A DNA stretch of 64,000 nucleotides, from positions 7,063,060 through 7,127,059 of the forward strand of contig OY811971.1 in NCBI GenBank assembly GCA_963681505.1, in the 5' to 3' direction. The position numbers and the translations under genes are program-made. This DNA is from Eunapius fragilis (lineage: Eukaryota > Porifera > Demospongiae > Spongillida > Spongillidae). Below are positions 6,493-62,101 of the stretch, one piece after another. The notes below the pieces were generated by a model, which worked only from the letters and a program-made list of their open reading frames with translations, had not been told where the DNA came from and did no database searches. Each line of letters starts with the position of its first letter. Position 1 is the stretch's first letter.

Positions 6493-6546
<54 letters not shown>

Positions 6547-7094: not shown

Positions 7095-7099
7095 GTGAT

Positions 7100-7178
<79 letters not shown>

Positions 7179-17974: not shown

Positions 17975-18824
17975 TAAGCACCCCCAAAACATTCAGCTAG
18001 CGAATATGCACTAGGTCGAACGCGCTACACTCTGTGTAAGAATTGTTGTTAATTGATTATTAATTTGATACGAACGTATACGGAGGTTGGGGGGGGGGGG
18101 GGGGTTAAATATAACCCACTGCTATCTAATTGGGTGGGGGAAGGGGTGAGTTAAAAACAACCTAATATTCTAATTGCTTGTAAAGCAAAAAAAAATCAGG
18201 TCTATCTGTCGATCCATGCGCTGATTTTTTTTTGCTTTCCATGCCCTAGAACAAAACATCCCCTCCTCCCCATCATGTGTGTGTGTGTCATGTAACGATG
18301 TAACGATGTATGTATATATGTATATATGTATATATATATATATATGTATGTATACATATGTGTATGTGTATGTGTGTGTGTTGGGAAACAGATTGTAAAG
18401 CAAGAAGAAATGTGGCTCATGAGAAACGTAAGAATTGGAATGCATTATAGAACTGAAAACATAACAATTCGAATACTTAATCTATCCATGATGAAATTGA
18501 GATGCCAAACACTACCTAATTTGACTCTCGAAAATCCATTGTGGTTTTTTGAATGCTGCTTTGCTTTTAATTCAACATCAATTAGCTTATGCCGTTAATA
18601 ACATGCCAAAGGTAAAATGTTACAGTATTCAATGGTCCATATAATTAATTGACAAAACCTGACATTGATATAGTGGTGGCACTGTGTCTCCTACCATGCA
18701 ATCTGCCAAGCACTACTGAACCCACCATAACAAAAAATGTACTCTGTAATGCATCATATGTAAATGATTTCATTTTTAATTTTCATTGCGGCATTGTTGA
18801 AAAACAAACAGTACATAAAAAGCG

Positions 18825-20364: not shown

Positions 20365-20493
20365 CTGAATTGTAGTTTTGATTTGCGCATGGCTTGTATA
20401 TGTACCTTGTAAATGCACCAGCATTTAAAAAGCACACGTAAGTACAGACAAACCCGAAAGAGCTAGCTTGCTACGTTCAGCAAGTGATCCTCC

Positions 20494-20547
<54 letters not shown>

Positions 20548-21100
20548 CATGCAAACATACGCACGCACACAAACTTCAACGCATACACATGTATCGGGTG
20601 TCACTAGTCCGCCTCACCTCAGTACTCCACATGCACATGCACAGATACAGTTTGGAGATTCTCCAAATTGTTTATATTTCCAGAACCCTTATCAGAAAGT
20701 TCAGTGAACCACGTCTTGGCACAAACCAGATCTCTCAACTCTATTGCCACTCTTCGTGCCTGTGCAACTCCGAACAAACGCCACTTCTGGTTCTTACACA
20801 TACTTCTTTATAGTCTGTGATGTTCAATCAGTTCATTGGAGTGAAATAGTTAGCAAACCTTATGCATGCAATATCGTGTATATCTTAGTACACGTCAGCT
20901 CTCTTGTCTGAGCTATCATAAACATGCACTTCGCGTTCTTGAACATTGATGTCAACACACACCCAAAGCGTGCATTCAACACGCTGATAGTAAGCATATG
21001 CGTAATAACCATCGCATGTAGCCTGCTGCACGTGCTTCTGTTTAGTCTCGAGAGGAAAAGAACCGTTGCAGTCTTTGCCGATCTAAAGTAGACTTGTGAT

Positions 21101-21177
<77 letters not shown>

Positions 21178-21841
21178 AACGCACGCACACAACGTGCACA
21201 CAACACGCACGCACACACAGACAACGCATACACATGTATCGGGTGTCATTAGTCCGGCTATACTGAGACCGCCTCACCTAATAACTCCACCCCTCATTTC
21301 CTTTCTCCGCCCCCAAAACATAGCTGTAGGGGAAAAAAAAAAAAGTTGCAATGTTTTTTTTTTTTTTTTTTTTTTTTTTTGGTTGTTTTTTTTTTTTTCC
21401 CCATGGCGGCAACGGCGTTCCATATAAACTACACCATTTCTTATGTTGTTCAACTTTTTTTACATGGATTACATGTAAGTGAGTTTAATGTTTCATAGTT
21501 AGTTTAGCAATCGCACACCAGATCTATCCACGTAAAAAGGGGGAAAACTTAGGAACGTGTATCTTCAGATCGCAACGCAGAAAAATTTGTTTTGGATGTC
21601 TCGTATGCCACAGAAACCGATTCCATTGAGAAAAAAATCAATGCGGTACGAAATTAAGTCCTAAAAATGGAATTTAAATAATAAACCTTGAAAAATTGAA
21701 GCCCTAAAAAGTTATAAAATCAGGGAAAAACTTCACTTCATCATTGCAGATAAAAAAAGCTTTCTACAATTGCATGAATTGCGATATTGCCGCTTAATTT
21801 GACCGCCAAATCACAATATACTTGTCGTACTGTCTGAAAGT
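20120..21841 (-). repeat. Right arm of integrase element (duplicate copy)
   Basis: Matches 6119-7843, differing only in CA-run and poly-T lengths. It contains both CA modules and the protease relic. Confidence 0.75.
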
Positions 21842-24287
21842 ACTGCACATATAGCCGTATGAAAGTTAGGAGCGCATATTTTTATAGGCCTAATAGGAGT
21901 GGTCTGTGCTATGAAAGGAATGGTGAGGCTCAAATTATTTAATGCTTGAGTATCCTTTTTGCTTCTGTCTTGTGGCTCCTTGGGGTGCATAAATTTGTAT
22001 TTACATGTATGCCACTGCTCTTTACATCTACCATTTGTATGGCGCTTCGGTTTTTTTTAGCATGCTTGCTTCATCACACCTGGGAAACATCAGGTTGTAT
22101 GAAGCAAACTTCAGGCAGCATGTTAATGTTGTCCTGCGCAGTATTATGCACACCATCACACACATAATCCACAGATACTAACAAGTGCGCACTCAGTTCA
22201 CAAAGCACACAGCCACACTCAGAATTTTATATTACTCGCCCAATGCACCAAATAACATTTTTCACCCCCCCAACATGAATGTACACTCCCAGCATACACA
22301 AATATATGACCTCCCATCAACATACACACCCAACTCATACTCTCCACCAACCACACACCAGTACACACCAATGACCCTACACACCCTCCCATATTTTTGC
22401 CCCCTCTTTGGCAATGAAGGGATAACAAGTGACACAACACATGCACAGAATTGCCTTGCTTTTAATAAATTGCTCCTAAACATTTCAACTTAACATATGT
22501 CTTCCCCCCCCCCAACCCCCCCCTCTAATGTGTTTTTCTCGGTGATGGGTTGTATCACTTGTTATCTCTTAATAACAGCATGTACACACCAGGTTACCCC
22601 ACTGATACACCAGCACAGCATATATAGCTGGCCTACCCACCTAACCTACTTATCGTTAGACAAACATAGTTTAATTCTCACCCACACACACACTCACACA
22701 CACATACACCAATAGCAGTGAAAATAACAGTGAACACTACCACCAGCACATATCAGTTATTGCCAAGGAGGGGCAACAATATTGCAAATGTCCACATGCA
22801 CCCCATACACCAATCCATACATCAACTAATATGTACACCAAAGGCATGCACTACAAGATAACATTTATCACATATGCAGTTTCCAAAATTCTACCTTACA
22901 TGTAGTGTAAGGGTCCTTGTTCTTGGCCTACCCCTATCAGAGGTCATCTGCCTCACATAAAGGGGTAGTGATCAATAGGATAGGCTAAGAACACTAACAG
23001 TTTCTTTTTCCAACCTTACATGACATGCTCCCTAGGTGGCTGTATGGTCTATGTGATACAGCCAGCATGACAATAAAGCTTCAGCAACAACTCAAATAGA
23101 AGGGACATTGCAGGCTTTGTGTGGTCATCAAGTAGCTACAAGGCTCTGCAGACTTCATGTGATGCATGGGCATTTGTATTTGGCGAGGCATGATCTGTGC
23201 ATGTGAATGTGGATGTACAGAAGGTGTTGGCATGGAACTTTGGACAATGGTGGACTTGCTGAAAGCAACCTGTTGAGTGAGCTGTACATGTAATAATATA
23301 ACATCCAGCCATTTGGTCATTTTTTGCCACCGAGTATCTACATGTGTGAGGCATACTGGTGTGTGTTGGTGATGGTCTGTGTACATGTGATGAATATGGT
23401 GTGTAGGTACGGAAGCCTGGTAGGTTGCATTTGTGTCTGATGAGCTTCGAGTGGTTATTGTGTTGTACTCAAGACATTATGGTACTTCTATTTTGCTCAA
23501 AAGCAATGATGCAATTAGCATTTTGACCATAACCATATACACCATGTAGGATGATAAGTACTGGTCAGATACGGGGCCTGAAGCATCCGCGCCCCCTCCT
23601 TAGATGCCCCCCGCTTTTTGTATTGCAGGTCTAACCTGTATACCCCCCTTTTCGAAAATCCTGTATCCGCCCCTGATGTATGATGCATGTAAGGTCACCT
23701 ATTAACCATATCCAATCCCCCTCTATATTAGTCCTAACAAGAAGTGTTCATTGCAAACTCCTTTGTATAATTGCCACCTCCATCTTTGTAACATGTATTC
23801 CCAATTAGTGCAACCTGCATGTGCAGTCAGTACGTTACAATAGTTATTGGTCACTTAACTACAACATCAAAAACAGATAGGTCACGACTGACTGACGATA
23901 AGTGGCATGTGATGATTATCTTGTTTGTGGGGTGTATCTCATTAACCATTCAATGGAAATGCAATTTGAAGGCCCAAAGCTCTGGGGGAAAAAATGAGGA
24001 TAAATAAGTACACTGACTACGCTCTTATAATCCGTGGGCACCTATCATTTGGTTGGGAAACCTTTGATGACTGAATAACGAAATGAGATTAAATGGACAT
24101 TGGAAACCTTGCATAAATAATATGGAAGTGCGGATATACCTAAGGTGCAAAAAATGCCAAATAGTACTCACATTGCAAATCCGAGAGCACCTAGTCAACA
24201 CTTGGTTTTGTTCTGCAACTAGCTGCAGTTTTCTGAATGCGTCAATACATTTCGACGGACATTGAATTACGCAATGACCGAATACCA

Positions 24288-25064
24288 CGTAATCCTTTCG
24301 ACCGCCAATTTCTCGATATGATGGCAGTTGCAGATAGGAGCCTATGTCTGAAAGGGCCTCCATCAATAAGTATCCCCTGGTACAGGAACGCTGCTTGTGC
24401 TAGCCTATTCAGCTCTTGCTCAACTCTTCCCCGTAAAGCATGCGGCACTGACCGAGGCCTAAAGACCGTGATGCTACATAGGGATCCACATAAAGCTAGT
24501 TACCCCCTTCACCAACCTTCCTCATCCTTGAAGAGCTCAGTGTGATGGGACAATAGTTTCTGAATGTGGTGCTTACAGCCAGTCTCTCCTCATATGGAAG
24601 CAACCCACAAGTAGGCTCAGGGAAAAATAGATTCGGAGGTACCATGCACAATAACACACTGTACCCTTAACTCTCAACTGCTCCCCAGTATTTATTATCG
24701 GAGGAGGACTCGGAGGAGGACATCTGTGGCCTGCAATTGTTGCCGTCTCTGCTTTGACCACATCGCCAAGTACTCGCTAATAATGGATGATGCTGGGATA
24801 ATGACAGATGCTGCAGCTCCTGTGTCATACAGTTTCATTACTATGAGAGAATCATTCAACAGGACAGGTAAGCTAGGTCAGAGATTTCTTGGAATGGTCC
24901 TGCAGAGGAAATAAGGTGTATATATGTATCCTTCTAACCCGATGATATTCTGATGCACTGTGGTGGCCATCACATCCGGTAACAGGCATCTTGCTTACCT
25001 TGTGCAGGAGTTGCTGCTTGATCAAACAATGTGTACAGGTCCGGGGTCCCCGACAGGGGGCCAA
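24288..25064 (-). mobile_element. Ty3/gypsy fragment (duplicate of 10290-11066)
   Basis: Identical to the first copy; broken fossil with zinc-knuckle, protease and reverse-transcriptase-start blocks. Confidence 0.5.
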
Positions 25065-25542
25065 ATTTCCTCGGCGCTCTTATCTGCCAGCTTCGCCAAG
25101 TTATACTATATGGCGTTCCATAAACAGAGAGTGGTATTTTGTGAGCGAAAACATATGTGCATATCTTTATATCTGGTCTCTCCATCATCCCATATCCCCC
25201 AACATGAAAAAGTTTATAGTGCCTACGTTTCAACATTTAAAAAACAGATTCCTACAATGTGTATTGCATATAAACCTATACAATTATATTTTAAAATCAT
25301 AAAATTATGCATGATGGCGTAACTATACATCTACATCAACAAGTTGCTAATCCTAGTCAAGTCATAACTGACATATGAATTGTGGATGCAATAAAATGCA
25401 TGATTCATTATTAATAATTATTTACCCTTAATGTGTTATATGGGATAAAAAGAACATGTACTTATTTATTACAGGAATATATACACATATGGCTAACAAC
25501 ATGACCTAACATATACATATCCTAACGCACTCACTCACTCAC

Positions 25543-26903
25543 TCATGCATACAATACAACAATTTTTACTAAAAACTCTTCCTCTTCACTGTCCGTTTTA
25601 ATTGTTCCCAACATAGAAGCTGCATTGCCACGTTGGATGGCAACTGAGAGTCTCTGAGTGAGGTATATGTATGCAAAGGAGTTGGCTTCTCCAGACACCT
25701 ACCTCAATCGATGCCCCAACTCTTTCAGGAACTCCGTAGTCTTTGGTCCAAAAACTCCACTTGTCTCTATAAAGTAGCATGAGTCAAGGTGTTTATACTT
25801 CTGCATCTTTCTATCTTCTGCCTGTTGAGCAACTGCTCCAACTTGGTGTGCAGCAATTGTGGAGTAAGAAGGTGCAAAAGTATCCGGACACGTTGAATCC
25901 CACACCAAAAGTTGCCCACACTTCCAAGGGACAATTGAAACACCATCAGGTCGCTTCCCATCTGAATGATACAGACCTGAAGGCTCCAAACGTGATGGAA
26001 CATGTGCTGAAACCAAAGCTCTGTGTATAATCTCGTTCACAGCTGAATGGCGGTGATGGCGTCCTGCAATCTTTCTGCAGCTTAAGCCATGCGTGGCAAA
26101 ACTGAGACACTTCTGCCCCACAGTGTTGGCAGGTATGGCTTTGACATAAAGGTAGTCCCAGATGGAGACCCATAGATATTCTCATAGTAGCATTATCCAT
26201 GCATAGTCCCAGTGATGTAACCGGCAGGGCATTTAACCATGCACCGGACTCCTACAGGATGCTGCAAGGAAACGAGCCCTGTGCATTGGATCAGATGAGT
26301 CTGTATCTGCAATAGAAGATACTCTGATTGGATCCCATGTCTTCTGATGATGGGCAGCAGCATCAGTGGGGGGTTGTTCTTGACATCCTTGGGACCATAC
26401 AGCAAGAGCCTCATCCACATAGCTGAGCTGGGGTGGTTGCATATTTGCTGGCAGAATTAGGTGAGCAAGTCCGGAGGAGGCAGCAGCTAAAGTCAAGAAG
26501 GCAGAAGGCATGCCAGCTGCACAGCGCTCCGAATTCCAAGCCCACCATGACGCACAAGCAAAGTGGATTGTGTCCAAGAGGGGTCACTTTCAGCCAGTTG
26601 GATATTAAAAGAGCTACAGACTGTTACTCTGAGTTCATCATCATAGATCTTTAAACTGGATGAGAAAACAAGGTGACGTTCTAAGCAGGTACAAAAGTTT
26701 AGGTATGGCCAAAAAGTGACGCAATAGAAGATAGGCATCATGACAAGTTAAGTAATGGAGTCTCTCACGAAGGCACTTCAGCATGGCGGTCTTGGCATCA
26801 ATAGCAACTGTGTTGGAACCAATATCTCCAACTGGTGAACCAAATAGTGCATCAGCTTGATTAACCTTTACCCTTAATTGGCATAGAGGTCCTCACGCAT
26901 GTC
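25543..26903 (-). mobile_element. R2-type LINE fragment (duplicate of 11545-12905)
   Basis: Identical to the first copy. Confidence 0.6.
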
Positions 26904-27164
26904 ATCGGTTTGTGAACACCATTTGTATGAGCTCACTACGTACACAAGGCTCATAGCATGATCTGTCAGTTGTACATTCACATTCAGTGCAAAAGCAAAT
27001 TGTGTATCAATAAGCAGAAAAAACTTATCACCACTGCATAAAATTTATGCCTTAAGCTTTATGTAAAAGCAACATAGACTTAACTGAGAGGGACATAAAA
27101 CCTGAAATTTTTGATTGCCAGAATAAACACAATACATGGAATACACACTCATACACGAGCATTC

Positions 27165-29624
27165 TTAAAAGCACTTCCTAGGGCTGTAATGACACCCCAC
27201 CTCATCATACTCCTGCTTGTAAGTCCACTTCTTCTGAAATGATTGCATGCTGGCAAGGATTGAACCACCAACCCAGGCACTGTACTTCGGTTCTGGAGCT
27301 GCAATGATATTGACCTTTGTGGTGGGTGGGGTTAGTGTCAGGATTTCCTTCTGCATCCTGTGTACAATGCCAGGGAATAAGGTGCTACCTCCTGACAAAA
27401 CAATATTGGCATACAGGTCCTTCCTGATATCAACGTCACACTTCATAATGGAGTTGTAAGTGGCCTCATGGATGGCAGCAGACTCCATTCCAAGGAATGT
27501 GGGCTGAAAAAAAGATTCTGGACACCTGAATCGTTCATTACCAAGAGTTATCATCACACCACCAGGTAATTCATAGCTCTTTTCCACACTGGAGTTCTGA
27601 GTAGCCATCTGCATCTCCTGGTCAAAGTCCAGAGCAACATAGCATAGCTTTTCCTTGATGTCACGAACAATTATTAAGTTTTCGGAAGAACCTGTAAAAC
27701 TGTAGCCACTCTCTATCATAAGTTTCATTAGATAATCTGTCAGGTCATGACCAGCAAGGTTTAAACTGAAAATGGCATGGGAAAGGGCCGAACCCTCATA
27801 GATAGGCACAATGTGGGAGACATCATGACCAGATTCTAACACGACACCAGTGCTTCGTCCACTGGAATAAAGAGACAACATTGCTGGAATGGCCACATGC
27901 ATGGCAGGGACGTTGAAGGTCTCAAACATGATCTCTGTCATCTTCTGACGGTTGGCCTTTGGGTTGAGAGGGTCCTCAGTAAGGAGAACATGGTGCTCCT
28001 CTGGGACTACATGGAGTTCATTATAGAAAGTGTGATGCCAGATCTGAAAAAGAAAGGGTATATTTTATTTCGATGTAGCACTCTATATATGGTACAATAC
28101 TTTCTCTTCCTCTTAAACTTCGGAAGGCCAAAGGGCCTATTTACATTGTGCTCATCATATTATGTTAGTTAGCCATGTAGTAAAAGTTTGATGACTTTTT
28201 ATCATTAGCAAGATTATGTTGCCAATTAAAACTGTACATTTACAATTATGGCTCCATCTCTTTTCTTTTAAGGAGCGGACTCAGTGGTATCATGAAAACA
28301 GCACTTCACGTATCAGCAAAAGCAAAGAAATTGTTGTGTGCCCACCATAGAATGTGGTGCATGCACCTATAATATTGAAGACCTGAAGCAAGGGTCTGTA
28401 ACAGATTTTCAGGGGTTATTCATGATCAGCAAAACCTCTAGATATAGACCTGTATATGATGGGTTCTTAATCGATGTTTATGTTTATCCCAGATTCAAAA
28501 CTATAACTGGCAATTTTTGTAATGACAGCTAGCAAGGAGATGTATAATTGCAGAACACCAGGGTACCACGAAAACACATGCATATGCTCACACACAACCA
28601 ACCATAGATTGTACATGGAAGTAAATAGCGCGTGACGTCATTTCCCGTCGTTGCTCGTGTTCGTGTTCCTTTTCTAAACTTACTAATTACTTCAGATAGC
28701 TTGCCTGATACTACTGAATTCTATTGAAGTCTTACTTACGGTAGGTAGGACAGTCATAGTTGGGCCGAGTATTTGGTTGCGTACTTTGAACGTAACAACT
28801 CTGCTAGATTTTTTATGGCCTACTACTTGCTGTCGCATAAGTAGTATTGCCCTGTGGTGTTTTTACATTTCGCGAACACGGGCATATGGTTCGAACCAAT
28901 TATCTGTATGGAAATCTTCCACGCGTGCGGGTTGTGCGACGGGTGGGGGCAGGATGCCACACCTATAATATAATTTAATAATTGGGCCGCACCAACTTTG
29001 CATGGACCGAGTGCGCCGGGCCTGTCATGGAAAAGGTCCGGGTCCTAAAAGGTCCGGACGGTATTCAATTTGATTTTATACGTCCACGTGGTTGAAAGCC
29101 ACTTTGCGAGTGATTGCGGAGATAGAAAAAGTAGTAGGCGATGGTTCCGATTGTGATGATGTTGTCGAGAAGGCCTGTGTCCAAGACGTATCCTGAATGT
29201 GTCAATGAGAGCAAAAAGAGAGTGATACAAAGAAAGGCTGCGAAGTTGAATATATCGTCTGAAGGAGAGCTATTGTATAAGCACTACTGCAGTACTGCGA
29301 CCCACCAGAAAAAATGGCGCCCCTCCCATATATTACATTTCGCCAGAGATCATATCTATATATAGCTAACCAGCTAACCTGCTCCATGTCATCCCAGTTG
29401 GTTACAATGCCATGTTTGATGGGGTAATTTAGTCTTAGGATACCTCTTTTGCTCAGGGCCGCATCACCGACGTAGACGTCCTTTTTGTCGATACCCATCG
29501 TCCCCAAGCCTCTGCCCACGATAGATGGGAAAAGTACTCTAGGGGCATCATCCCCTGCAAATCCAGCCTTGAATATCCCACTGCCATTATCAAACACCAA
29601 CGCATAAGTACCGTTGTCACTCAT
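27165..29624 (-). CDS. Divergent actin (duplicate of 13167-15626)
   Basis: Exons are at 29379-29624 and 27165-28043, with the same 374-aa product and the same intron, base for base. No substitution was seen in exons or intron, which argues against an old paralogue. Confidence 0.8.
29035..29365 (+). mobile_element. Ginger1 5' relic in actin intron (duplicate)
   Basis: Same sequence as 15037-15367. Confidence 0.5.
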
Positions 29625-30138
29625 GTTATTCTATAAAGCAGCATTTGGATTTAATCCTTATTTGGGGCACCAAACCACGAACTCATTTAATTGGAATAGG
29701 ATTAACGGTATTCCTCCAGTACTTTGTGTATTGTAGGCATGGCCCGATGAAATATTGGAGAAATACCGTTTATCCAAATCAACACATTACAATGGTAATG
29801 ACGCATTGATGCTGTCGACATTATTTTGACCATAACAATAAATTAGCAGTGTATGTGAATGGTATGGTGTGCGCATATTACCGCTGAGTAGGTAAATATC
29901 AAATATACAAGCCGCTATGGATTTATTAGGCACGCGTACGAAAGTCCACAACTCTGAGGCAGTGAAAAGGGACCTGTCACGAAAAATTTGGTCCGGGAAA
30001 AAAATCGGTCCGGCCGGACCAATTTTGGCGACCAAAAGTGGTCCGGCCGGACCGAAAATGACGCCAAAATTTGTCCGGGCAAACCAAAACTGGTCCAGGC
30101 ACATAACACCTTGAACACGTGGAGCATTCGTTTTGAAA

Positions 30139-33100
30139 ATGGCTGATTCAAGTGAAGAGGGAGATGCCAAAAGTGCGGGGGATCTAGTAGAAGAAGCATA
30201 TGAGTACTTGGTAAGAAATGTGTACCCTGTGGGTGCAAGCGTAGCGCGCAAGCGGTGCATACGAAGAAAGGCTCAGAAATTTGTTGTGAAAGATGGAGAA
30301 ATGTACTTTAAGAAGAAGAAGGGCAAGGTTTGTTCATTTTTTAATTTGGCTAATGCACACCTACTGTGTCGTCCGCACGTCATGGGTTGAGCTTAATTAT
30401 TATAGATAATGGAAATACGATTTGTCGGAGTTAAGGAAGAGCAGCGTCGTATTCTGAAGGCTTGTCATGTGGATCCGATGTCCGGGCACATGGGAGTGAA
30501 GCGCACTTTGAACAGGATCAGCGAGCGGTTCATTTGGCCATGCAACTTAGATTTTTAGTAATAGATTTCTATAAAGTCCATACCTGAATTTAAATAACCG
30601 CAGGTCGCCAAATGTGACATCTGCCAGCATGCAAATCGGAAACACATGCATACAGCCCCAGAACTACACCCGGTTCCAGTGAAGTCACCATGGAATCACA
30701 TTGGCATTGATTTTGTTGGGCCACTTGTGAAATCTAAGTCAGAAAATCAATACATCCTGACTGTGTGTGACTACTTCTCCAAATGGGTAGAAGCAGTCCC
30801 ACTTCCATCTAAACATGCAATTGGAGTTGCCAATGCACTCTACAAGGTAGGTCAATGAAGCAACGTTTTCCTATGTGTAATTACATTATAATTGCATTTA
30901 CATTGCAACTGAGATATATATGTGCTTATTATTTTAGAAATTAAGTTATGGTACAGTAATATAATGCCATGCCCACTCCAGGCCCTTAGCCAGGAAGGGG
31001 GGGGGGCCAAGAGGCTGAGCCCCCCCCCCCCCCCCCCCCCCCCCCCCTCATGCAAGGGAGACCCCACACACATATACACATTCGCATTTGGCTAAATGTG
31101 AGGGGACCTCCCCCACTTTCAAAAGTCCTGCTATCGATCCCCCCCCCCCCGTCAAATGTCCTGGCTACGGGCATGCACTCATAGTCTAATTCACTGTATT
31201 CTATCCTTGCAGATTTTTATGAGAATGGGTTTGCCCAAGATCATTACAACAGACAATGGCACTGAATTCAAAAACGAATTAAACAAGCACCTTATGGATC
31301 TCCTAGGTATAGATCACCGGCTGACAACAGCGTACCATCCACAGGTCTGTAATATGTCTGCATTCATTTTTTCCATGCTACAATAAATTATTGCGTATGT
31401 TAAAAAGTAGTGAAGCCATTTTTGAAGTTAAATCCAATTATTACTTAAAGCAATGAGAAGAAATGTTTAAGGAACAACACTGTAGATTTTATATTTTGTT
31501 GTCTCAATACCTAAAAGGAAGACAGACCGTTTCCATAATTAATAAGGGTTAATGGACTCGTATAAATTTAAATGATTGGTAGAATACCATTAAAATTATG
31601 CTTTTATCCAATGCCAACTTTGCATTCATTTTATAGGCCAATGGTCTTGTTGAAAGACTTAATCAGACCTTGCAAAATATGATTGTCAAATTTTGCAACG
31701 TGAAGAAAACCAATTGGGATGATGTTCTGAATACGTTTTTGCATACAACACTTCTTGCCACGAAAGCACACTTTATACGCCGTTTGAGATTATGTTTGGG
31801 AGAAAGGCAATTCTACCAATTGATTTCCAAATGCATGTAGACATACCAAATGCTTCTGAAATAGAACGAATTACTGATGAAAGAATAAAGGTACTGAAAC
31901 AAGCGAAAGCAAATATTCAATTGGCACAAAAGAAGCAGAAGCTAGAATATGACCGGAAACATGCTAACCCAAAAGCCTATGAATTAGGTGCAAAAGTCCT
32001 AAAAAAGGATTTCAAAAGGAAAAAAAGGAGAGGAGGAAAATTGGACTACAAGTATGTGGGCCCATTTACTATAACAAAGTGTCTTGGAAAAGGTTTGTAC
32101 TCACTTCAGTCAATTGAAAACCCAGATGTAGTCATCAAGAGCGTAAATGGTGTCCACATCAAACCATATCTTACCCCACACAGTACTTTTAGTACACATT
32201 CAAGCTCAAACTCATCCAGTTACACACCACCAGTAGATAAATCAGTTCTTCATAAGACTGAGGTTGTACTTTCCAGTGGTGATTCATTCCACAAGAGAGG
32301 TGACTCATCAGCAAGTAGTCCTACATCCAAGTCTCAGCACTCCAAAGAATCAGAGGCCACTCTCCAACATCTTAGTGCTAGCAAACAACATATGGAAGAG
32401 CATTATTATGCTGATAATCACTTAAGTAATGTTCATGATGATGGCAATCTGCTTTATGCGTGGAAGTGTGTGACATATACATTAGAAGGCTGTAAAAGTG
32501 AAAGCTTAAATGTCTTTGATCATGAAAGTACTCAAATGGGTGACCTTGCATTTGTATTGGAGTCTTCCAAGCATATCACAGTACCTGAATTGCCAAATCC
32601 CCATAGTGAGATGGTTACAAGTACTCCAACTTTAAGTGGAGGATATTTTACACCAATGGAAGATGGAAACTTATCTCCAATACCAGTTTGTAATGTGCTG
32701 AGCCACTATAAGGAGAGCTGTATTCAACCTGCACTTTCCACCACTGCCTCTATCCCAAACCCCACATCCTCGCCTGCTTGTCCATCACAGGTTCCTCAAA
32801 CTAGCAGCTGTCCACAGAGAGATTTTCCAAAGAGTCCAAATTCACAAATGCAATTAAAAATTGCTATCACAAAGGATAAATGTCATTTGAAAAGCAAACA
32901 CCATAAGAGCCACTGTGAAAAACGTGAAGTGATTCCTAGTGAAGAAAGTAAGTGATTATGATTATATTCAATTTTATAAAAATTATTGCATTTGTTTATT
33001 TCCACAGAACAAAAGAAATCTCAAGGGTTACAAGTTTGGATACCACAACTGAACCTACTAGCTGAAGACAACCAGGCCATTGAAGAAGGAAAATGGTTAT

Positions 33101-51102: not shown

Positions 51103-52559
51103 TATTTACTTGTTTCATAAGTTTTTTTTCACCCTGTCATAGCAGTATCATAGTCAATAATCAAATGTAGGAACAGGATGGATGATCCCCTTTATCTCTT
51201 AATGCAAGAACAAATAACTTTAATGGTACTGCTGGTGGTGGGGGCAGCACTGATGGTGCAGGCAGGAGCGCCGGTGGGGGCAGCGCTGGTGGTGCCGGCG
51301 GGAGTAGCTGCTGGTAGTGGTGTGGGCAGTGCTGCTGGTTGTGGTGGCAGAAGCGGGGCTTCTGGAGGTGGTGGGGTGAAGGGGGAGAGGAGTTGGAGGA
51401 TGAATGTACTCTTCCTCCTCCGACCCCTCGTTGGTGAAAAACCCGCGAAGGTCGTCAGCCATCTACATATACGTAACAGAGAGTATGATTAAATTTTTAC
51501 TTCTTTATTTTTTAAAGCAAAGTGCACAGCCTTTACACATCTACATAGAGTATTATTAAATTTTTACCTCTTTTTGCTAGCAGATGAATAGCTTTTATAC
51601 CTGCAAAGCCTTACACGTGTGCAGACTGTGCTATAATTATATTAGTCCAATTCCATCATATTAATGACAGGGAGGGAAGGGGTGTATGCGTGTCAGTTGT
51701 GCTAAAATTCTATTGGTCAAATTTGATCCAGTAAAAATGGTCCCATCTAAACATGGAGGTGTAGCCTACATGCAGTTAAGTTGTATAGATGGGTAGTGTG
51801 GGAACTAAGGAAGTGAACTACATGGCAGTACATGGCAGCATGTAGATCGATCGATAAGGATATGTTCTCAGGTGAGGTCCTATCTGTGGACAGGGTCTGC
51901 AGCTTTATAAGTGTGGGCAGAAGGTCTGTTTTTATTTCACTACATTAATGTGAGTGTGCTGCTAGAAGTACCTGATGGTGGCTTATATCTTACTTACTGC
52001 TGCACAGGCAGATCACTACCCCTAAGAATAGCTTTTTCAAGACCACCATTATACTTCATTGGTGCATGAGATTTGGGTTTATACAAGGAGTAGCTATATG
52101 GGAAAAGGATATAGTTGCAGCTATTTAGTTCTCAGCCCTTGCAACTGTAACTATATTCATACAGTTGCAACATTCACAGTACATGGCTAGACAAGGAAGT
52201 CTTCAGATAAGGAAGCTTTATCAGATTAAAACAATAGACACTACTGTACACACAGTTGAGTCACCATGCATGCTTTACATGTGAAGTGAATGGTTTTGTG
52301 CAGATCCGTGCTGTACATAGTCGGGCAGGCCTTACTACCCACAGGTAGTAGGGTGACAAACCCGACCAAACGCGGTAGTAGGGCCGCCCGACAATGCTGT
52401 ACAAATGTTGCATGCACAGCTTTTTAATGTTAATACAACATGCCATAACATACCTTTGGGTGGTAGTGGTAGTTCTGTGACCCCTGCGGTACCGCGTCCT
52501 CTCGGCAGCACATTTAGCCAATCAGACAGCGGGATCATTTTAATACCGACTCCTTTCAG
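51103..52559 (-). mobile_element. Composite-repeat copy B, central and 3' part
   Basis: 51103-51150, the GC-rich 51228-51400 and 51600-51720 match, inverted, 63125-63175, 62866-63030 and 62770-62860. No protein is recognisable. The GC-rich stretch is built from GGTGGTG and GGGGGCAGC words and gives low-complexity Gly/Ser/Ala or His/Pro frames. 51720-52560 is otherwise unassigned. Confidence 0.5.
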
Positions 52560-52971
52560 ATGCTTTAATGGTAGCTGATATTTCTCCCTATTAGCAGCGC
52601 GATTTCCCTCGAGGTCCTCTTCATATCGCCGCCTTTAGTTTTAGCAGCACGGTTCTCCTCGAGGTTCTTCATATCGCCGCCTTTGAGCAGCACGGTTCTC
52701 CTTGGGGTCCTCTTCGTATCGCCACCTTTTAGCAGATCGCTTAGATTCAATATCGGCCTTGTAGCTGCCGCGTACAGAGGCCTTCTTCATTTCTGGATCG
52801 GCCATGTAGCTGTCGCGTACAGAGGCCTTCTTTTTGGGGGGATTGGCCTTGTAGAGCGCTCGGGCTTTAGCTTTGTTCTTGTATTGCTTTGGAGGTATTC
52901 CGCTCGTTGCTTAGATCTCTTCTTTTGCATTTTTAGAAAAAGAACTTCACTATTAGCCAACGTAACAACTA
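52560..52971 (-). pseudogene. Charged tandem-repeat protein remnant (copy B)
   Basis: The minus strand starts QKKRSKQRAEYLQ and then repeats words like YKADPEKKKASVR and RRYEEDLEENRAAK across frames. Such Lys/Glu-rich repeats are known from mobile-element-linked proteins in sponges and cnidarians, but no enzymatic domain is visible. The frame shifts several times. The CACTA element is inserted just upstream of its start. Confidence 0.5.
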
Positions 52972-53246
52972 CACAGCCAAATTTCATTTACTGGGTCAAC
53001 CATGTATACATACCATACGCTATATGTTGCCGTAATCTGGTTCAAAATGTTAACACAGTCTGGTTCATACGATGTAGGGAAATACTATGTAGGGGCTTGA
53101 TACACCCTACGCTAAACAATATGTTCTACATATTGGGAACAGATTGATAACATACCCAACCAGACAAGCGGGTTTCCCTTATAAGGCATTGTTTGTATGG
53201 TGTTGGAGAATTGTATTCATACGCTACTATTCTCATCCCCCACCCT

Positions 53247-53976
53247 TCATACAATTGTGTCATCTCTATTATTAGAAAATGTATTTTCACAGTAGACATT
53301 ATAGCAATACATGGTGTTGTTCCAGTCATGCTCAAATACAAGTGTGTTCTCTTGAATGATTTCTCGCTCAACGTTCCTGGAAGATGTTGCAGTCTCCTTA
53401 AATAGGCAAGTAGCACTGCATTCATGAACAATAGAAACAGGTCGTTGTATGTTGCTGCCAGTAGTGCAGAAGATAGTGGTAGATAGGTCCAGGAGTGGGC
53501 AGTCATATTCATTCACCACTGGCAGTCCATCAGGTAACGAGAGCTCATGAAATCCTTGCACCAGGCAGTGCACACTGTCATCACTATGTTTAAATGTTGC
53601 TAGCAGTATTCCATACTTGATCTAAACAAAGAACAATACATGTACTCATACACCTACCATATCCTGCAATGAAACTTACATTGCACTGGGGCGTAACAAG
53701 TTCCACATAGTCTCCGGAATTGACCAGGACAGTACTTTGGGACACTATAGCCCGATGCTCAAACACTTTATCTGTAAGGGCAAACGTGCCCATTACAATA
53801 TCACACCGCATGCTATGTTGCAACAAGTAGCCAAGGGTGGTTGTGTGCTTTCCCGCAGATATAAGTGGTAGTGTTGAAATTGTACACGAAGTCCGCAATG
53901 CCTGATGAGCAAGCGAACACTCGTTATTGCAATCATACATGCATGCACACAAAACGGAAGCCATACACACAAACAT

Positions 53977-54010
<34 letters not shown>

Positions 54011-54011
54011 G

Positions 54012-54059
<48 letters not shown>

Positions 54060-57000
54060 CACACACACGCGCACACACACACACACACAAACACAAACAC
54101 AGAGAAACACACTCATGCATAAACACACAACACATCACACGCAAATATACCGGAACGCTTCACAAACCTTTCTCGCTACTCCTGGTTGATAAATTGACTT
54201 ATGTCCAAGCAACTCTTGCATGGAGATACCACGTACAATATGTTGTACCAGAGGAACAAAATACAGATCTTTCAGAGCACCACCACACCTACACATGATC
54301 ACAAGATGTTAAAATGTTTTTATAAAATGATACATGTCAGATGACATACCTTTCACTTGCATTGCCACCATTACAAATATAACGCAAATGTTGCAATACA
54401 CAGAATCGTCTAGCGATATCACGGCTAGGAGCAAGCCTGTTTCCAAATACATTGTACGTTCTTACATTTGAGTTGAACGACTCAAACCTTAAGGGATACA
54501 ATTATAATCAAACCAGAAACAAAGTGCATGTACTTACCTTTCAGCTGAGAAAGCTGAACAGGGCCCATACTTCACCATGCTATCAACAAGATGAAGGATG
54601 AGGTGTGTCTTCTTCTTTTCCAGCAAAGAAGGCATGTATTGCTTCACTGCACTCACGAAGTTTTGACAGATAGTTTTCCACTCTTCCAACAAAGTTGGCT
54701 TGAAGAAGTCACAGTATGCAATTTTGAAAACCTAACAAATACAATAGACTCAAAATTGCAGGTTGATAGTAGCGCTTACCTTGGAAAACGAAACAAGTAC
54801 TTCCTTTTGCCCATCACTAAGGTATGGACCTAAGATGAACAATGCCATCTGTGACCATCCTTTGAAATCACGCCCTACAAATGATTGGTAGTAGTAGCAG
54901 ACACTGCCATACAGCTTGGTACTAAAACCACAGGTGTTGAATGCCCGCACTCGGGCCTGGATTTCCCTCTTCTGCTGTGCTGTCATCTTTGGCATTACGT
55001 CTTTCAGGAAGTGCTTGCATGAACCAAGTAACAACGTATGCAAAACTTCAACAGGTAAATACCTATGGGAAGGACATTAAAATTAAAATTAAAATTGTTT
55101 AGTACTTACTGGTAAATGTCAGCAGCAACAGGTAACACATATAGCATAGGATTGTAATCCTCCCGCAATCCAAACGATTTCCTCATGGTAACCCTCTCAG
55201 CCTCTGTAAGCAGTGCTTTGATTTGAGCAATCTGCTGCAGCGCCATAACCTTCGTTCTCAAAGCACACACTCTGTCAGGGTTTTCAGTTCTAGTGGTCTG
55301 GTAAATAACATAGTTTCGCCATTAAAAAATATCAAGCAATAGCCATGACTCACCATGCACAGATGGCAATACTTTATAGCCCGACTACCAAGATGGTTTA
55401 GCAGCTCTGAAGCCCTAGGGTTATCACACACTATGCACATGACTGGAGCCACCACTAGGACCATTTCTTGGTACAATGCGTCAAATGTAAAAACCCCTTC
55501 AGTTTCCAATGTTGCCAGTTGTTGGGCAATTGGTTCAGCTAGATCAACTGGAGAGACACTGTCAGAGCTGCTAACAAAATTAATGTTTTCAATCCTGGCA
55601 TTAAGACGACGCGGAAAACCAGCGAAGGAGAGATACCATGATTCAAATTTGTGCCACTTTTTGGAACGATTACCACTTGTATCGTCAGAAAAAAGAATAA
55701 GTGGTAACATTACTACTCTTTTCCCATCTGCTCTCGCTTTGAGAGGGTGTGGTGCTAGATGATTGTAGTTTCCTAAACATGGTAAAATCTGCTAAATTTT
55801 CTTTTACATATTGATTATGCACATACCTGCTTGTCCATCTTTGCAAAACCAGAACCTGACGACACTTGCTGTACAATATGGATGGGAGGGGTGGCTAAAC
55901 CAACTATATCAGACACTGGCACACTCATTTTGCCGTATGAAATGAGGCTGTCTGAAGACATATGTGTTACAGTTGTGTCTGGTACCATGTGTTGAAACTG
56001 TACAACATCTAGAAGAACCTCAATGTCAGCCAGAACATCTTTTGAGGGTGCCTGTGTTGAAATACATATATAGAAATTGTCATAATCAGTTTCAGCAGCT
56101 AACCCAGTGATAGAATTTCTCAACAACTCCAGTGAGAGTTCCCAGCTCATGGTGTTTGATAAGAATACAGTCCTTCAAAAACACAGATGTTCCATTAAGA
56201 AGCTTAACCATAGGGGAAAAGAAACGGGAATCATTGCACCAAACCTCTGCATGGTATATTTCCCTGAAATGAATCAAACAATAACCAACACAGCAATGTA
56301 TTGGTACGCATTACATACGTGTGCATGTCAAGTCCCTCAACTGGGAACCGTATCAAGTTATTAGATAAATGAGGCTGTCCAACACATTGAGAAACTATGG
56401 ACTCCAAAGGAATAGAATAGAACGGTATTCCTTTACTGTTAACATGCTAAACATATAAAAGGAAAAATTAAGTTAATATGATACAGTAACATGTACTAGG
56501 TACCATACCCTGACAGGTTCTTTCATATCTGGTAGTTTAAACTTCTTTACACTAGAGAGACAAGGAACTGGGATGCCCATCTGTTTCAGAATGAACCACA
56601 CAAATGATAGATTCATTTCACCCTTTTGTATTAAAAAAGAATAAATAAACAAAACTCGTAGAAGCCAACAACATACCATGGGATGTGGTGAGTTGACCAG
56701 AAAAAAAAGGAGAGCAAATATCTTTGATGGAAATGGATGATAACTGCCTGTGCTGGTATGTGTGAGCTCATCAAACCATTCTTCAATATCAGGATCAGCA
56801 TCAACTACATCAGCTACGTCATCATAAAGGTCATCATTGCACACAGATTCATCTTCTGTAGGTTTTCGTTGCTCAGCATGGAACACTTCCTCGCTCTGTA
56901 GTGGCTGCTCAGCACGGATGCCAGCCTGCATGGATGGATTGTAATTTTTTACAGTCGCTCGCCTGCATGAAGGCCAAGTCTTCAAGGAAAGAGACATGAG

Positions 57001-57374
57001 ATCGACTTGCAACATGCTGTGCGTACTTGCTGGGATGCTGGAAACTTTGACCACACGGTTCACAACGAAATCCTGTACATCAATATATTTGTGAACATAC
57101 TTAAAAGCATTTCCTAACATATAAGCAAGTTGATGGTTACGGATGGTGCCTAGCATGTGAACATATTACCAAATAAGCAACACGTGCTTTAATACTGGGT
57201 CCTAAGCTTTGAATTCTAATTCACGGTGATCACGAGTGCATCTTAAAATGCACGATCCTTGCTGAAATAGACTATTTTAACCGCCATTTGAATACCAGGT
57301 CACGATTCTCACTCTTTCGCCGTACCCTTTTAGCTACCAAGAAACCATACATTGCATTACTCACGTTTCGACAT
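53247..57374 (-). CDS. CACTA/Plavaka-like transposase, 983 aa, 15 exons
   Basis: Exons (minus): 57365-57374, 56963-57072, 56677-56925, 56509-56622, 56319-56446, 56104-56263, 55827-56051, 55354-55788, 55110-55297, 54780-55062, 54538-54731, 54350-54487, 54168-54288, 53680-53901 and 53247-53621. All phases agree and no stop occurs. A C2H2 finger lies at residues 7-29 (CX2CX12HX5H), then an acidic stretch (about 60-95). The tnp2-like core has ILFSDDTSGN (about 363-372), CDNPRASELLNH (453-464) with a CHLC pair, a LHTLLLGSCKH block, and SAERFESFN (about 696-704) followed by LAPSRDIARRF. These Asp/Asp/Glu are the likely catalytic set (inference). The C-terminus is Cys-rich (HECSATC, YCYNVYC). Exon 2 must use a GC donor (CAG|GCGAGC) with a 37-nt intron to keep frame, which is the weakest point. 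An alternative start at 57156 would skip the finger. Confidence 0.8.
53979..54098. repeat. (CA)n tracts in a transposase intron
   Basis: Interrupted CA runs on the plus strand within the intron 53902-54167, so (UG)n in the transposase pre-mRNA. Confidence 0.85.
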
Positions 57375-57534
57375 GGTGCGCACACTTCAGAATCGCTCAG
57401 TTGGTAATAAATATTCTTGGCGGGATGGTACAGCTGCTGGAAAAGAACGATCCACCCGGACCTATTCGAGATATCTGCTCTGCAACCCTATTGGACATTG
57501 CAGACTATTTAAGATGTAAATTGGGGTTCGTGCG
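57375..57534. promoter_or_regulatory. Shared divergent promoter region of the CACTA element
   Basis: The ~160 bp between the transposase ATG (57374, minus) and the accessory ATG (57535, plus) must hold both promoters unless transcripts start further away. Short open frames on the plus strand from 57373 suggest the accessory gene could have a longer N-terminus. No TATA box was identified. Confidence 0.4.
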
Positions 57535-58701
57535 ATGTTAAATCAAATCGCGCGCTGCGAAATGGCATTACCTGGCAATGATCGTTTTCATCCTTATTCA
57601 TATCCTGATGGAATTCGACCGAATGTACCCAGTTCCTCACCTGCAGCGGGTAGATGCAATACTACGACTATTCTTCCATCTCACCCTGTTCAGAGGCCTC
57701 CATGTGCTGCAACAGCCACAGCGCCTCATCCACTGCAGGCAACATTGGACAAAATTATGGGGGGCATCAATACTATTTCGACCGCTGTATCTGCTATGAA
57801 AACCGAGCAAGAGAAACACGCAAAACAACTCGATGATTTAATTCAATCCTCCTTTACAATTGAAAAAAGCGGGTATAAGGTACGGCACTGCAACAATGAT
57901 ATGCCAGCATGAAACAATATAGTATTACCAATCCATGCATACGCAGGATGAGTTGATTCTCGAAACAGCCCTACTCTTTTGCAAGACGATAAATCGGCAG
58001 CCGGACCAAAAATCCATTTTGGTATGTACCCTGTGTATGCATGACATTAATTTAATCAGTGCATGTGACATTTATTAAATAAAATATATAGGGAATTGTC
58101 GCAAAGGTTCTAAAGTCTGATAGCACTAAAAAGTATAAAAAAGATGCTGCCAGTGTCTTTATACGAGGTCGTCTGTGTGAACTGCGTGCAGAAGAGCGAC
58201 GCAGAGTAAGACATATTCATGTTTTGCATCACATTAAATGTGTTTAATTTTAAGGTACTCGGTCGAAAACCTTGCGAGGCATACCCTACACTTTCATGTG
58301 ACCTGTTCATGGAGAAGTTTCTTCCCTTACTAAAGGTAGAAAGGGATGTCATTCCCTTGTATCCAAGTCACGTGGCGATACTGGTACGTACATGCATACG
58401 GCTATTGTTATAAATTATAGTATACTCATGCTATTCCCGCCGGCTTCAATCGACTCGTATACAGCGCAAATACTGCAGAAATGTAATACATTACAAAGAT
58501 CGCATGTATAAGGGTCTTGATGTGTGGCTCAAGATGATGTACCACGATGGCAAACCATCAGCAACGGAGTTGCAGTCTGCTTTGGATGAAGACGACGACA
58601 TTATCAATCCCCGAGCTCCTGATCATGACGCCGCACAGGCTAACTCTCCAAGTTATACAGAACCAACTTACAACAATGAACTAGTAGACACTTTACAGTA
58701 A
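57535..58701 (+). CDS. Unknown protein of the CACTA element, 299 aa, 5 exons
   Basis: Exons: 57535-57879, 57947-58021, 58092-58205, 58255-58383 and 58465-58701. All introns are GT-AG and phase 0, and no stop occurs across 299 codons. The N-terminus is Pro/Ser/Ala-rich, followed by a likely coiled coil (TLDKIMGGINTISTAVSAMK, then EQEKHAKQLDDLIQ). A basic middle has KVLKSDSTKKYKKDAASVF, then RGRLCELRAEERRR and conserved-looking cysteines (GRKPCEAYPTLSCDLF, RKYCRNVIHYKDRMYKGLD). The tail is acidic (ALDEDDD). I recognise no domain family. By position it may be an accessory DNA-binding or regulatory protein, analogous to TnpA of plant En/Spm elements (analogy only). A captured host gene is possible. 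The start is the first ATG after an in-frame stop. Confidence 0.65.
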
Positions 58702-59016
58702 CACCAGGTCTATCTTTCTATCATGTACAACGCATGCCCGCGCCCGTGATTCAGCTATTGTATATCTAACGACTTCAATTAAACGTTAATCAAAATTTTC
58801 ACATGATTGGTTCAATACGTATTCAATCTGAGGTTCGTATGTTAAACAGCATTGGTACATACTGTTGCCCATATGTACCTAAAAGTAGCGCCATTTTGAT
58901 TGCAGCTGTCATAACAATCTGTATCAGATTGTGGCTTGCTGACATACTATGAGCCAAATGTGATAGACATCTTGGCTCAGAATGTTGCGTCTGTCATACT
59001 TGGTACAGTTTGTAAC
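58702..59016. other. CACTA element right non-coding end
   Basis: Sequence between the accessory stop and the right terminal repeat, with no coding motif. It probably includes the accessory 3' UTR and subterminal binding sites, but no clear repeated motif was resolved. Confidence 0.5.
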
Positions 59017-59121
59017 AATTTGGCTGTGTAATATATTAAACTGGATAAATTTAGTGCAGGTTAGAGTATTTATAACTGCCTAAAATAATTAATAAATTGA
59101 ACTTGATATATGTATGTCTAT

Positions 59122-59904
59122 ATGACATGTAAGGATAAAGTGCCGGTAAATTTCGAAGCGATTGGTACTATTCCCGTCCTTCAAAACCGTTCCTAGCTGG
59201 AGTTATACCTTCCTAAGAAGAAGAAGACGACGACGATGGAGAATTATTTTGGGACTGGGCACGAGAAACAGGAAATTGTTTGTTTCTCTATAACCACACC
59301 GTTTTATGACACGGAACAAACGTAGAACTGTAGATCGTTGTGCTCTCATTCCATCGCGATAAAGAGATAAGCGATCCGTATCTCCGTTGTCCCTCCAGAC
59401 GCTAGTGAAGTTTTATTAATGACATTCATCAACCCTCAATCAACCCTATATTGAACCTGCTGCCGCAGGTTCATAAGAATAGGTGTTTTAACAGCAAATC
59501 TGAACCTGCGGCAGCAGGTTCAATATCAGATTGATTGAGGGTTGATGAATGTCATTAATAAAACTTCACTAGCGTCTGGAGGGACAACGGAGAAACGGAT
59601 CGCTTATCTCTTTATCATGAATGTCATTAATAAAACTTCACTAGCGTCTGGAGGGACAACGGAGAAACGGATCGCTTATCTCTTTATCACGATGGAATGA
59701 GAGCACAACGATCTACAGTTCTACGTTGGTACCATGTCATAAAACGGTTGTTTCTCGTGCCCAGTCCCTTAATAATTCTTGGTCGTCGTCGTCTTTTAAT
59801 TCTTCTTCTTAGGAAGGTATAACTCGAGCTACGAACGGTTTTGAAGAACGGCAATAGTACCAATCGCTTCGAACTTTACCGGCACTTTATCTTTACATGT
59901 CATA
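59122..59904. mobile_element. Fold-back element with nested palindrome (5' arm of composite repeat)
   Basis: The left arm (ATGACATGTAAGGATAAAGT...) is mirrored by the right arm ending ACTTTATCTTTACATGTCAT. At the centre (about 59452-59526) is a second palindrome, GAACCTGCTGCCGCAGGTTC, repeated inverted after a ~30-bp spacer. The right arm also carries a 72-bp tandem duplication (about 59546-59692; unit with TGAATGTCATTAATAAAACT). A related single arm occurs at 45655-45720. Confidence 0.75.
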
Positions 59905-59977: not shown

Positions 59978-61080
59978 AAACATAGTTGAGCCTTAGTAGG
60001 GGTGGTCTAGGCCTCCGTAGGTTGGAGCTGCATTGTTCAGTGGCTTACTTGGCATCTGTGATCAAAACCAGTAATTCAGATCCCCTGGATGAGTTTTTTA
60101 GGCAAGCAGTCAGCATTTACAATAGTTTGGTTCATCAGGCAAGTTCTTTATCAGATAATTCGTTTTTAGAGTCAGGGTCGAGCCAAAAAAACAGTTGTGT
60201 GCGACTTCAACTCCAGCCAACCGTGCCCGCTTGTTGTCAGCGTCATCTCGCCATGCTTCCTCTTGGCTGGCAGTGATTCCGTCCAGGGGACTCAATCTCT
60301 GCATGGAGCCTGAAGAGTTCCAGGTGGCATTGAAATGGTGGCTTGGGATGGACACTTCACCACAGCAACGTTGTCCCCACTGCCACGACAATCAGCTAGA
60401 CCCTCATGGGCATCATGCAGTAACCTGCAAAGCGGGAGGGGATGCAGTGATACGGCATGCATAATGCCCTGAGGGATGTATTTACGCAATTCTGCCATAG
60501 GGCTCGTCTGGGTGGTTAATTAGAAAAAGGGTATGGATCGGGAGGGGATTTTTCTAATAGCCGGCCAGCAGACTTTCTGGTCCCCAACTGGACACTGGGC
60601 AAGCCAGCTGCGTTTGACCTAACTGTAGTCTCACCGCTTAACTCCAATACATTGATTGAAGGGGGAGCTACAAGTGGGTCAGCAGCGGGTAAGGCCGAAG
60701 TGCGTAAGCACAATGCCAACGACCCTAAGTGCAGGGAGCTGGGGTGGGTCTGCATTCCCTTAGCGGTCGAGTCATATGGCCCTGGGTGCTGGGGGGAAGA
60801 AGCACATAGTTCGTTTTCTCGCCTTGCAGCCCGCCTGGCTTAAATTGCAGTTACAGTGCAGCAAGTCCAAAGCCACAACGACCATATTCCAGAGACTTAA
60901 CCTGACCTTGGTCCGTTGTAATGCAAGAGCCATGCTATCCCGTGCATGGCTGTTGCAGTCAATAGACGCGGGGGTTAATTGAGACATGTGGGTTAGGGTG
61001 GGTGTTCTTTGGGTGTTGTGGGTCTTTTTGGTGTGCTGTACACTACTTAAGGGTTTTATTTCGTTGTACATGTAATCTTT
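59978..61080 (+). mobile_element. R2-type LINE 3' fragment (left arm of tail-to-tail pair)
   Basis: It starts at LSLSRGGLGLRRLELHC and continues through RARLLSASSRHASSWLAV, the zinc finger CPHC...H....C, the endonuclease block (SRPADFLVPNW-like) and LTLVRCNARAMLSRAWL. Frame changes and stops show it is dead. The 3' tail ends in AATAAT repeats. It is related to, but a different subfamily from, 47889-50664. Confidence 0.7.
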
Positions 61081-61124
61081 GAATAATAATAAATAATAAT
61101 ATATGAATAATTGATATAATTGAA

Positions 61125-62101
61125 CAAAGATTACATGTACAACGAAATAAAACCCCTAAGTAGTGTACAGCACATCAAAAAGACCCACAACACCCAAAGA
61201 ACACCCACCCTAACCCGCATGTCTCAATTAACTCCCGTCTATCGACTGCAACAGCCTTGCACGGGATAGCATGGCTCTTGCATTACAACGGACTAAGGTC
61301 AGGTTAAGTCTCTGGTATATGGTCGTTGTGGCTTTGGACTTGCTGCACTGTAACTGTAAAGCCAGTCGGGCTGCAAGGCGAGAAAACGAACTATGCATGT
61401 GCTTCTTCCCCCCAGCACCCATAAGACTCGACCGCTAAGGGAATGCAGACCCACTCCAGCTACCTGCACTTAGGGTCGTTGGCATTGTGCTTGCGCACTT
61501 CGGCCTTACCCGCTGCTGACCCACTTGTAGCTCCCGCTTCAATCAATGTATTGGAGTTAAGCGGTGAGACTACAGTTAGGTCACACACAGCTGGCTTGCC
61601 CAGTGCCCAGTTGGGGACCAGAAAGTCTGCTGGCCGGCTATTAGTAAAATTCCCTCCCGACCATGCATACTCTATCTCCAATTGACCACCCAGACGAGCT
61701 CTATGGCAGAATTGCGTAAATACATCCATCAGGGCATTATGCCGTATCACTGCCTCCCCTCCCCCTTTGCAGGTTACTGCATGATGCCCATGAGGGTCTA
61801 GCTGATGGTCGTGGCAGTGGGGACAACGTTGCTGTGGTGAAGTGTCCATCCCAAGCCACCATTTCAATGCCACCTGGAACCCTTCTGGCTCCATGCAGAG
61901 ATTGAGTCCCCTGGACGGAATCACTGCCAGCCAAGAGGAAGCATGGCGAGATGACGCTGACAACAAGCGGGCACGGTTGGCTGGAGTTGAAACTGATCAA
62001 ACTAATGGTTTTCAATTCCAGCAGATAACTTTTTTTGGCTCGACCCTGACTCTAAAAACGAATTATCTGATAAAGAACTTGCCTGAGGAACCAAACTATT
62101 T
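61125..62101 (-). mobile_element. R2-type LINE 3' fragment (right arm of tail-to-tail pair)
   Basis: Reverse-complement homologue of 60121-61080 with scattered differences. It joins tail to tail across a ~44-bp A/T-rich spacer. The longest open piece (61460-61966) covers the zinc finger and the RPADFLVPNWALGKPAVCDL endonuclease block. Confidence 0.7.

Follow-up and report, generated by a model that had tools for sequence, protein, structure and literature searches.

The window, a stretch of 64,000 nt from Eunapius fragilis (GCA_963681505.1, contig OY811971.1, positions 7,063,060-7,127,059 of the forward strand), contains a transposable element with two divergently transcribed genes. Its features are listed below; all feature coordinates are window positions.

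52970-52971, no strand: left copy of the TA target-site duplication; a single TA is present at empty sites of paralogous repeat copies
52972-59028, no strand: whole element, 6057 bp; borders from its ends and from empty sites
52972-52983, plus strand: left terminal inverted repeat, CACAGCCAAATT
52991-53068, plus strand: left subterminal repeats, core CTGNNNCA, starting at 52991, 53037 and 53060
53247-57374, minus strand: transposase gene (gene 1); exon 1 encodes MSKR and is followed by a C2H2 finger exon and the DDE exons; damaged in the window copy
55354-55772, minus strand: exon 8 of gene 1, boundary as in relatives; first catalytic Asp, second Asp and C(2)C
55763-55772, minus strand: frame lesion where exon 8 begins; one base is missing compared with 11 of 11 relatives
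56926-56951, minus strand: apparent intron-2 remnant; the 5' splice site of copies C3, C4 and C11 is missing
57375-57534, no strand: stretch between the divergent start codons, 160 bp, from the gene models
57535-58701, plus strand: gene 2 (candidate accessory protein); five exons, no stop, GT-AG introns of 49-81 bp
57535-57879, 57947-58021, 58092-58205, 58255-58383 and 58465-58701, plus strand: exons of gene 2
58920-59008, minus strand: right subterminal repeats, core CTGNNNCA, 20, 48 and 101 bases from the end
59017-59028, minus strand: right terminal inverted repeat, reverse complement of CACAGCCAAATT
59029-59030, no strand: right copy of the TA duplication, from the TA outside the end and from empty sites

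The 12-bp inverted repeat is perfect at both ends and a TA lies outside each, as a preliminary description of this locus had it. The termini read CACAG..CTGTG, i.e. they are of the CAC..GTG type. Within the window, exact matches to CACAGCCAAATT are confined to the two ends (n=2), while four matches are found at up to one mismatch, against 0.86 expected from shuffling; four were reached in 0 of 100 shuffles. A query in which the window flanks were joined by one TA was spanned over 151/151 bp, with zero length difference, by 18 of 40 among the matches listed. The empty sites that were read (n=4) each contain exactly one TA (...AACAAC-TA-ATATATT...). Because these paralogous sites hold a single TA, insertion duplicated exactly TA, and the borders first proposed for the element are correct. 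The same four of four sites rule out that the TA is part of the inverted repeat and that no duplication took place.

The element is nested in another multicopy repeat (approximately 51472-52971 and 59029-59488; 40 places scored). In all four empty-site copies, this host repeat matches the right flank over 424-460 bp; its match to the left flank extends through the entire 1500 bp tested in two of them. A repetitive peptide rich in Lys and Arg (RRYEEDPKENRAA and similar), with no Pfam match, is encoded in the left part of the repeat, and a similar peptide repeat adjoins a distant relative of the element on C17. Elsewhere in the window, TACAGCCAAATT, one mismatch from the element's end, is found at 6107-6118 and 20108-20119, adjoining arms of large inverted repeats (6118-6542 and 20119-20543, both pairing with 2609-3033); these sites are possible relic ends. 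The regions 4818-16274 and 18819-30272 form a tandem duplication of about 14 kb, with ORFs of the same length and same start at an offset of about 14.0 kb, including two actin genes (27168-28064, Pfam actin E 4.7e-98, and its twin at 13170-14066) and an rva_4 integrase-core ORF (19175-19942, twin at 5174). To the immediate right of the element, 59121-59904 and 60206-61991 contain long inverted repeats that are nested, among them one of 253 nt at 98% and one of 242 nt at 96%. Scans of the window for tRNA genes and Rfam families found none.

Read through the protein of a relative, the transposase aligns in 12 of 12 copies tried, and intron positions are mostly common to them. The CMCT signature as used here consists of D-D-E, with C(2)C and H(3-4)H between the second D and the E (PMC12730594). 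All of its residues are present in the window copy. Across the 12 copies, the D of FSDD was found in 12 and the D of CDNP in 11, the E of SAERFE in 12, the two C of C(2)C in 12 and 12, and the two H of H(3)H in 10 and 12; the N-terminal C2H2 residues are kept in 11 to 12 of them. The Pfam profile Plavaka (PF18759, cut-off 26.3) scored 23.3 bits in the window protein (E 4.4e-5), 24.8 in C1c and 29.2 in C2b, so that C2b alone among the three proteins tested passed. Transposase_21 (PF02992) stayed below its cut-off of 28.6 in the same three proteins (15.3, 11.4 and 17.3 bits). A whole-genome search with PF18759 retrieved no match, nor did it in any control genome, and is therefore uninformative. 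Between the window and C11, transposase dN/dS is 0.19 (dS 0.60). A long CA microsatellite (53979-54110) lies inside a transposase intron that measures 266 bp in the window, 255 in C3, 174 in C11 and 50-64 in the other nine copies. Judged by these sequence features, the element belongs within the EnSpm/Plavaka (CMCT) clade; we file it neither as a proven Plavaka nor as a proven EnSpm member because some defining features of each are absent. The initial assignment to a cut-and-paste element of CACTA/Plavaka-like type, with two genes transcribed divergently, is thereby supported, and the layout is conserved among copies.

Gene 2 encodes 299 aa from the first ATG, the length originally reported for an open second gene, or 290 aa from the second in-frame ATG. 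Its introns fall at residues 115/140/178/221 in 13 of 13 copies aligned, with one extra intron placed by the aligner in six of the 13. Setting aside the sister copy of the window element (C3), identity is 41 to 57%. In the 11 copies besides window and sister, one frame break each was detected in C4, C11, C6 and C2b and none in six, while C1b has two frame breaks and two stops; the sister has one frame break. The dN/dS of gene 2 is 0.29 for the window against C4 (dS 1.22) and 0.31 against C11 (dS 1.12), and much alike for the sister; other pairs between subfamilies have a dS of at least 2 or are saturated, as is dS between most subfamilies. Near-identical pairs within subfamilies range from 0 to about 2, and misalignment of proline repeats has probably raised some of the gene 2 values. 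Transposon genes usually show this combination of purifying selection between subfamilies and relaxed tips. These comparisons indicate that gene 2 is a genuine gene under purifying selection between subfamilies.

The protein has a Pro/Ser-rich N-terminus, a heptad pattern at about residues 67-108, whose contrast was reached by 0 of 2000 shuffles, and a basic conserved domain at about residues 105-265. Searches of Pfam, PDB and NCBIfam returned no significant match, and no DNA-binding fold was recognised. The single Pfam match of the window protein (E 0.1) and the best NCBIfam hit (E 0.045) are at chance level, with no Myb/SANT match in Pfam, and the best PDB profile hit (E 0.18) is not meaningful. 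Viral contigs searched for gene 2 gave 66 pattern matches and no relatives.

The 160 bp between the two start codons are presumed to form a shared promoter region. To follow the pairing of the genes across the genome, we used the 69 matches covering at least 100 aa among 150 listed by an exon-8 search; the shorter matches that were dropped include C19 (91 aa, 74%), which carries gene 2. Of the transposase loci with at least 60% identity, 26 of 43 have a gene 2 match within 9 kb among the matches listed, and all 26 partners lie upstream and divergent, the other orientation being found 0 times. Among the best 150 of 164 gene 2 matches, none lies within 9 kb of the remaining 17 of these 43 loci or of any of the 26 loci below 60%. 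Such loci may work without gene 2, may be fragments, or may have a partner too diverged. In a family whose transposase is 50% identical (C17:1718000-1722500), a strongly diverged gene 2 is present in the same divergent position, scoring 74-128 with four queries, whereas 15 shuffled versions of the window protein scored no higher than 21. The partnership is therefore old, and the association count is a lower bound. Many gene 2 matches were also retrieved away from the transposase loci listed.

Subterminal repeats with the core CTGNNNCAR are present at both ends of the element. Ten ends from five subfamilies contain the gapped word CTGN3CAG 20 times with both strands taken together (about 10 sites), versus 0.7 in 60 shuffle sets, a figure inflated by homology between subfamilies. 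The pattern CTGNNNCA[GA], chosen after this gapped-word scan, is concentrated in the outer 330 bp in six of six elements (p 6e-7 to 0.009), two of which, C7 and C6, are near-identical; stricter versions of the repeat were not significant in C7 and C6 (p 0.11-0.15). Repeats of this kind are as expected for a TnpA-like accessory protein, by analogy with En/Spm.

Taking these results together, we consider it probable that the window holds one copy of a two-component cut-and-paste DNA transposon family of the EnSpm/Plavaka (CMCT) clade, in which gene 2 encodes an accessory end-binding protein and of which the window transposase is damaged. End-binding is the best reading of the gene 2 protein, given its position, its conservation and the repeats. 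It would dimerise, bind the subterminal repeats and help the finger of the transposase to locate the ends and bring them together, in the way that TnpA works with TnpD in En/Spm; cleavage by the transposase at the TA|CAC ends and insertion at TA would follow. The transposase finger alone could also bind the subterminal repeats.

Gene 2 might instead be a passenger or a regulator, such as a repressor or an anti-silencing factor, and not a cofactor of transposition. Its lack of a recognised fold would agree with such a role, as would the seemingly weaker selection on it (0.31 versus 0.19 for the transposase, window against C11), and genes related to silencing are described in other transposons, e.g. 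the fungal TET/JBP genes (PMC12730594). We nevertheless regard this explanation as rather unlikely, since the gene has kept the same divergent place in the mapped copies and in the one 50%-identical family that was read, and the subterminal repeats fit an end-binding partner.

Copies of the element are numerous. Genome-wide (219 Mb), CACAGCCAAATT was found 130 times forward and 136 times in reverse, i.e. 266 exact ends, whereas the reversed 12-mer used as the control pattern gave 2+2 = 4; with the TA outside required as well, 90+95 remained, against 0+0 for the control. Further copies with the same ends, which the preliminary description proposed to look for, thus exist. Among 16 paired elements tabulated, 12 have TA on both sides, although four of the 16 are two duplicated pairs with common flanks (C1a/C1b and two 165-bp copies on C2) and are not independent. 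Short derivatives of three kinds, 165 to 253 bp long, keep the ends and have room for neither gene; the 165-bp kind was found twice.

A DNA search of the genome with the element retrieved at least 95 matches. The nearest copy, the sister at C3:9850407-9856346, is 98.6% identical over 3842 bp (23 mismatches) and 96.9% over a second stretch of 2098 bp (2 mismatches, the remainder gaps). Its outermost 39 and 23 bases are missing and both genes carry frame lesions, which rules it out as proof that the window copy moved recently. On one side it is bordered by TTTTTGGTTGTGTA, and GGTACACAACCAAAAA lies shortly beyond the other; these look like the ends of a different element. In another subfamily, C20 is 99.0% identical to C12 over 6533 bp and 98.2% to C1c over 6796 bp. 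C12, C1c and C20 each have their own, different flank ending in TA, and this combination with 98-99% identity shows that the subfamily moved recently.

In the window copy itself, an open reading of gene 1 of 972 or 974 aa in 15 exons can be assembled on the minus strand; the 983 codons of the preliminary description were not reproduced. Its transposase over 15 exons without a stop therefore holds as an open reading and fails as an undamaged gene, because two of the splice choices are unlike those of the relatives. From the conserved intron-7 acceptor to the PH motif there are 26 nt in the window instead of the 27 nt found in 11 of 11 relatives, and the conserved frame is consequently interrupted by a stop. 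The open model escapes this exon-8 stop via an upstream AG, leaving a 38-bp intron, and the 983-codon model presumably uses the same AG. The intron-2 donor seen in C3, C4 and C11, the three copies aligned there, is absent in the window.

With a frame lesion and a lost splice donor in its transposase gene, the window copy is most likely non-autonomous, as judged from sequence. It does not bear out the initial impression of an apparently intact element, and the proposal that it may still move is unsupported as far as autonomous movement is concerned. Given its perfect ends, it could be mobilised in trans by relatives. The verdict of a broken gene assumes the splicing of the relatives; it could change if this copy is spliced alternatively or if the assembly contains an error. 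Most other copies have lesions too. In C1c both genes are open, with neither frame break nor stop in the aligned parts, its first exon not being located and its far end lying in a run of N; in C2b the transposase alignment is open and gene 2 has a frame break. A gene model built from one sequence can hide lesions, and relatives were needed to expose an 'intact' copy as broken.

That the window copy is fully intact and still autonomous, the original splicing being real and its protein functional, appears improbable to us. Its perfect ends, the uninterrupted reading of 972-974 aa and the close similarity to the C3 sister (98.6% over 3842 bp and 96.9% over 2098 bp) would all be consistent with it. 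However, such a copy requires a 38-bp intron with an acceptor unlike the one that keeps the frame in 11 of 11 relatives, as well as a donor that cuts into or just past the zinc finger, and its closest copy, without both ends and with frame lesions of its own, gives no sign that this one moved recently.

A host gene or domesticated transposase, the single-copy case that the preliminary description had set against a transposon, is virtually excluded: purifying selection between subfamilies and nothing more speaks for it, whereas the many dispersed copies (266 exact ends), the target duplication with empty paralogous sites and the relaxed selection within subfamilies reject it.

Plant En/Spm elements have CAC..GTG ends, subterminal repeats and 3-bp duplications. 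The sponge element resembles them in these ends and repeats and in the proposed need for two proteins, but plant tnpA and tnpD are products of a single unit with alternative splicing (PMC1636069), in contrast to two divergent genes and a TA duplication here. The comparison is fair as an analogy of layout and subterminal repeats only, and the early remark that the layout recalls the two-protein En/Spm system stands to that extent and no further. EnSpm/CACTA elements proper share the CAC..GTG termini; they differ in their CACTA core and 3-bp duplication, the latter described in fungal EnSpm (PMC12730594) and in Capsaspora CACTA families (PMC4007536), where this element has CACAG ends and duplicates TA.

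Plavaka elements share C(2)C and H(3-4)H, and a 2-bp duplication is possible in them (PMC12730594); the PF18759 match is above cut-off in C2b and below it in the window protein and C1c. However, the fungal ends described are TGT..ACA (PlavakaA) or CATCA..TGATG (PlavakaB) (PMC12730594) rather than CACAG..CTGTG, and the TA duplication and divergent partner gene also set this element apart. Fungal Plavaka, ESTA and EnSpm are described together (PMC12730594); outside fungi, a Plavaka transposase flanks giant repeats of Amoebidium (PMC11244446), and Plavaka is also named in a green alga (PMC12633428). The EnSpm-like ESTA of rust fungi is similar by description, with a TA duplication and the CMCT signature, but its three reported families carry a TET/JBP gene (PMC12730594).

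Among animal elements, SmTRC1 is a CACTA element with 2-bp duplications in 7 of 14 copies (PMC1636069). SmTRC1 and other animal TRC elements are alike in being CACTA-type, in the 2-bp duplication and in a short extra protein proposed as a TnpA analogue; unlike the element here, they have CCC ends, and their extra proteins are reported as alternatively spliced and not detectably conserved in other elements (PMC1636069). Spongebob has been described in Hydra and insects (PMC4298943). Two-gene PIF/Harbinger elements likewise combine a transposase with a separate DNA-binding partner (the Nuwa Myb/SANT protein, PMC12730594), but that transposase belongs to another superfamily, and gene 2 has no Myb/SANT match in Pfam. 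A literature search over titles and the beginnings of abstracts in a limited collection of papers did not find this two-gene layout; entries may exist, for instance in Repbase.

The CACTA elements known best are from plants, and their extra protein arises by alternative splicing. In the family described here, the partner of a Plavaka-like transposase is a divergent gene of its own that has been retained while the subfamilies diverged deeply, and both ends carry repeats. The clade to which the element belongs also contains Transib, from which RAG1 originated. We tentatively suggest, at a little under even chances, that gene 2 is the founding member of an undescribed family of transposon accessory proteins, one with an origin separate from that of plant TnpA but with the same job, binding CTGNNNCAR to assemble the ends. 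If true, this would be a two-component CMCT lineage between Plavaka and EnSpm, with its own TA target and divergent promoter. The layout also allows a direct test of whether accessory proteins that bind the ends have originated repeatedly within the clade.
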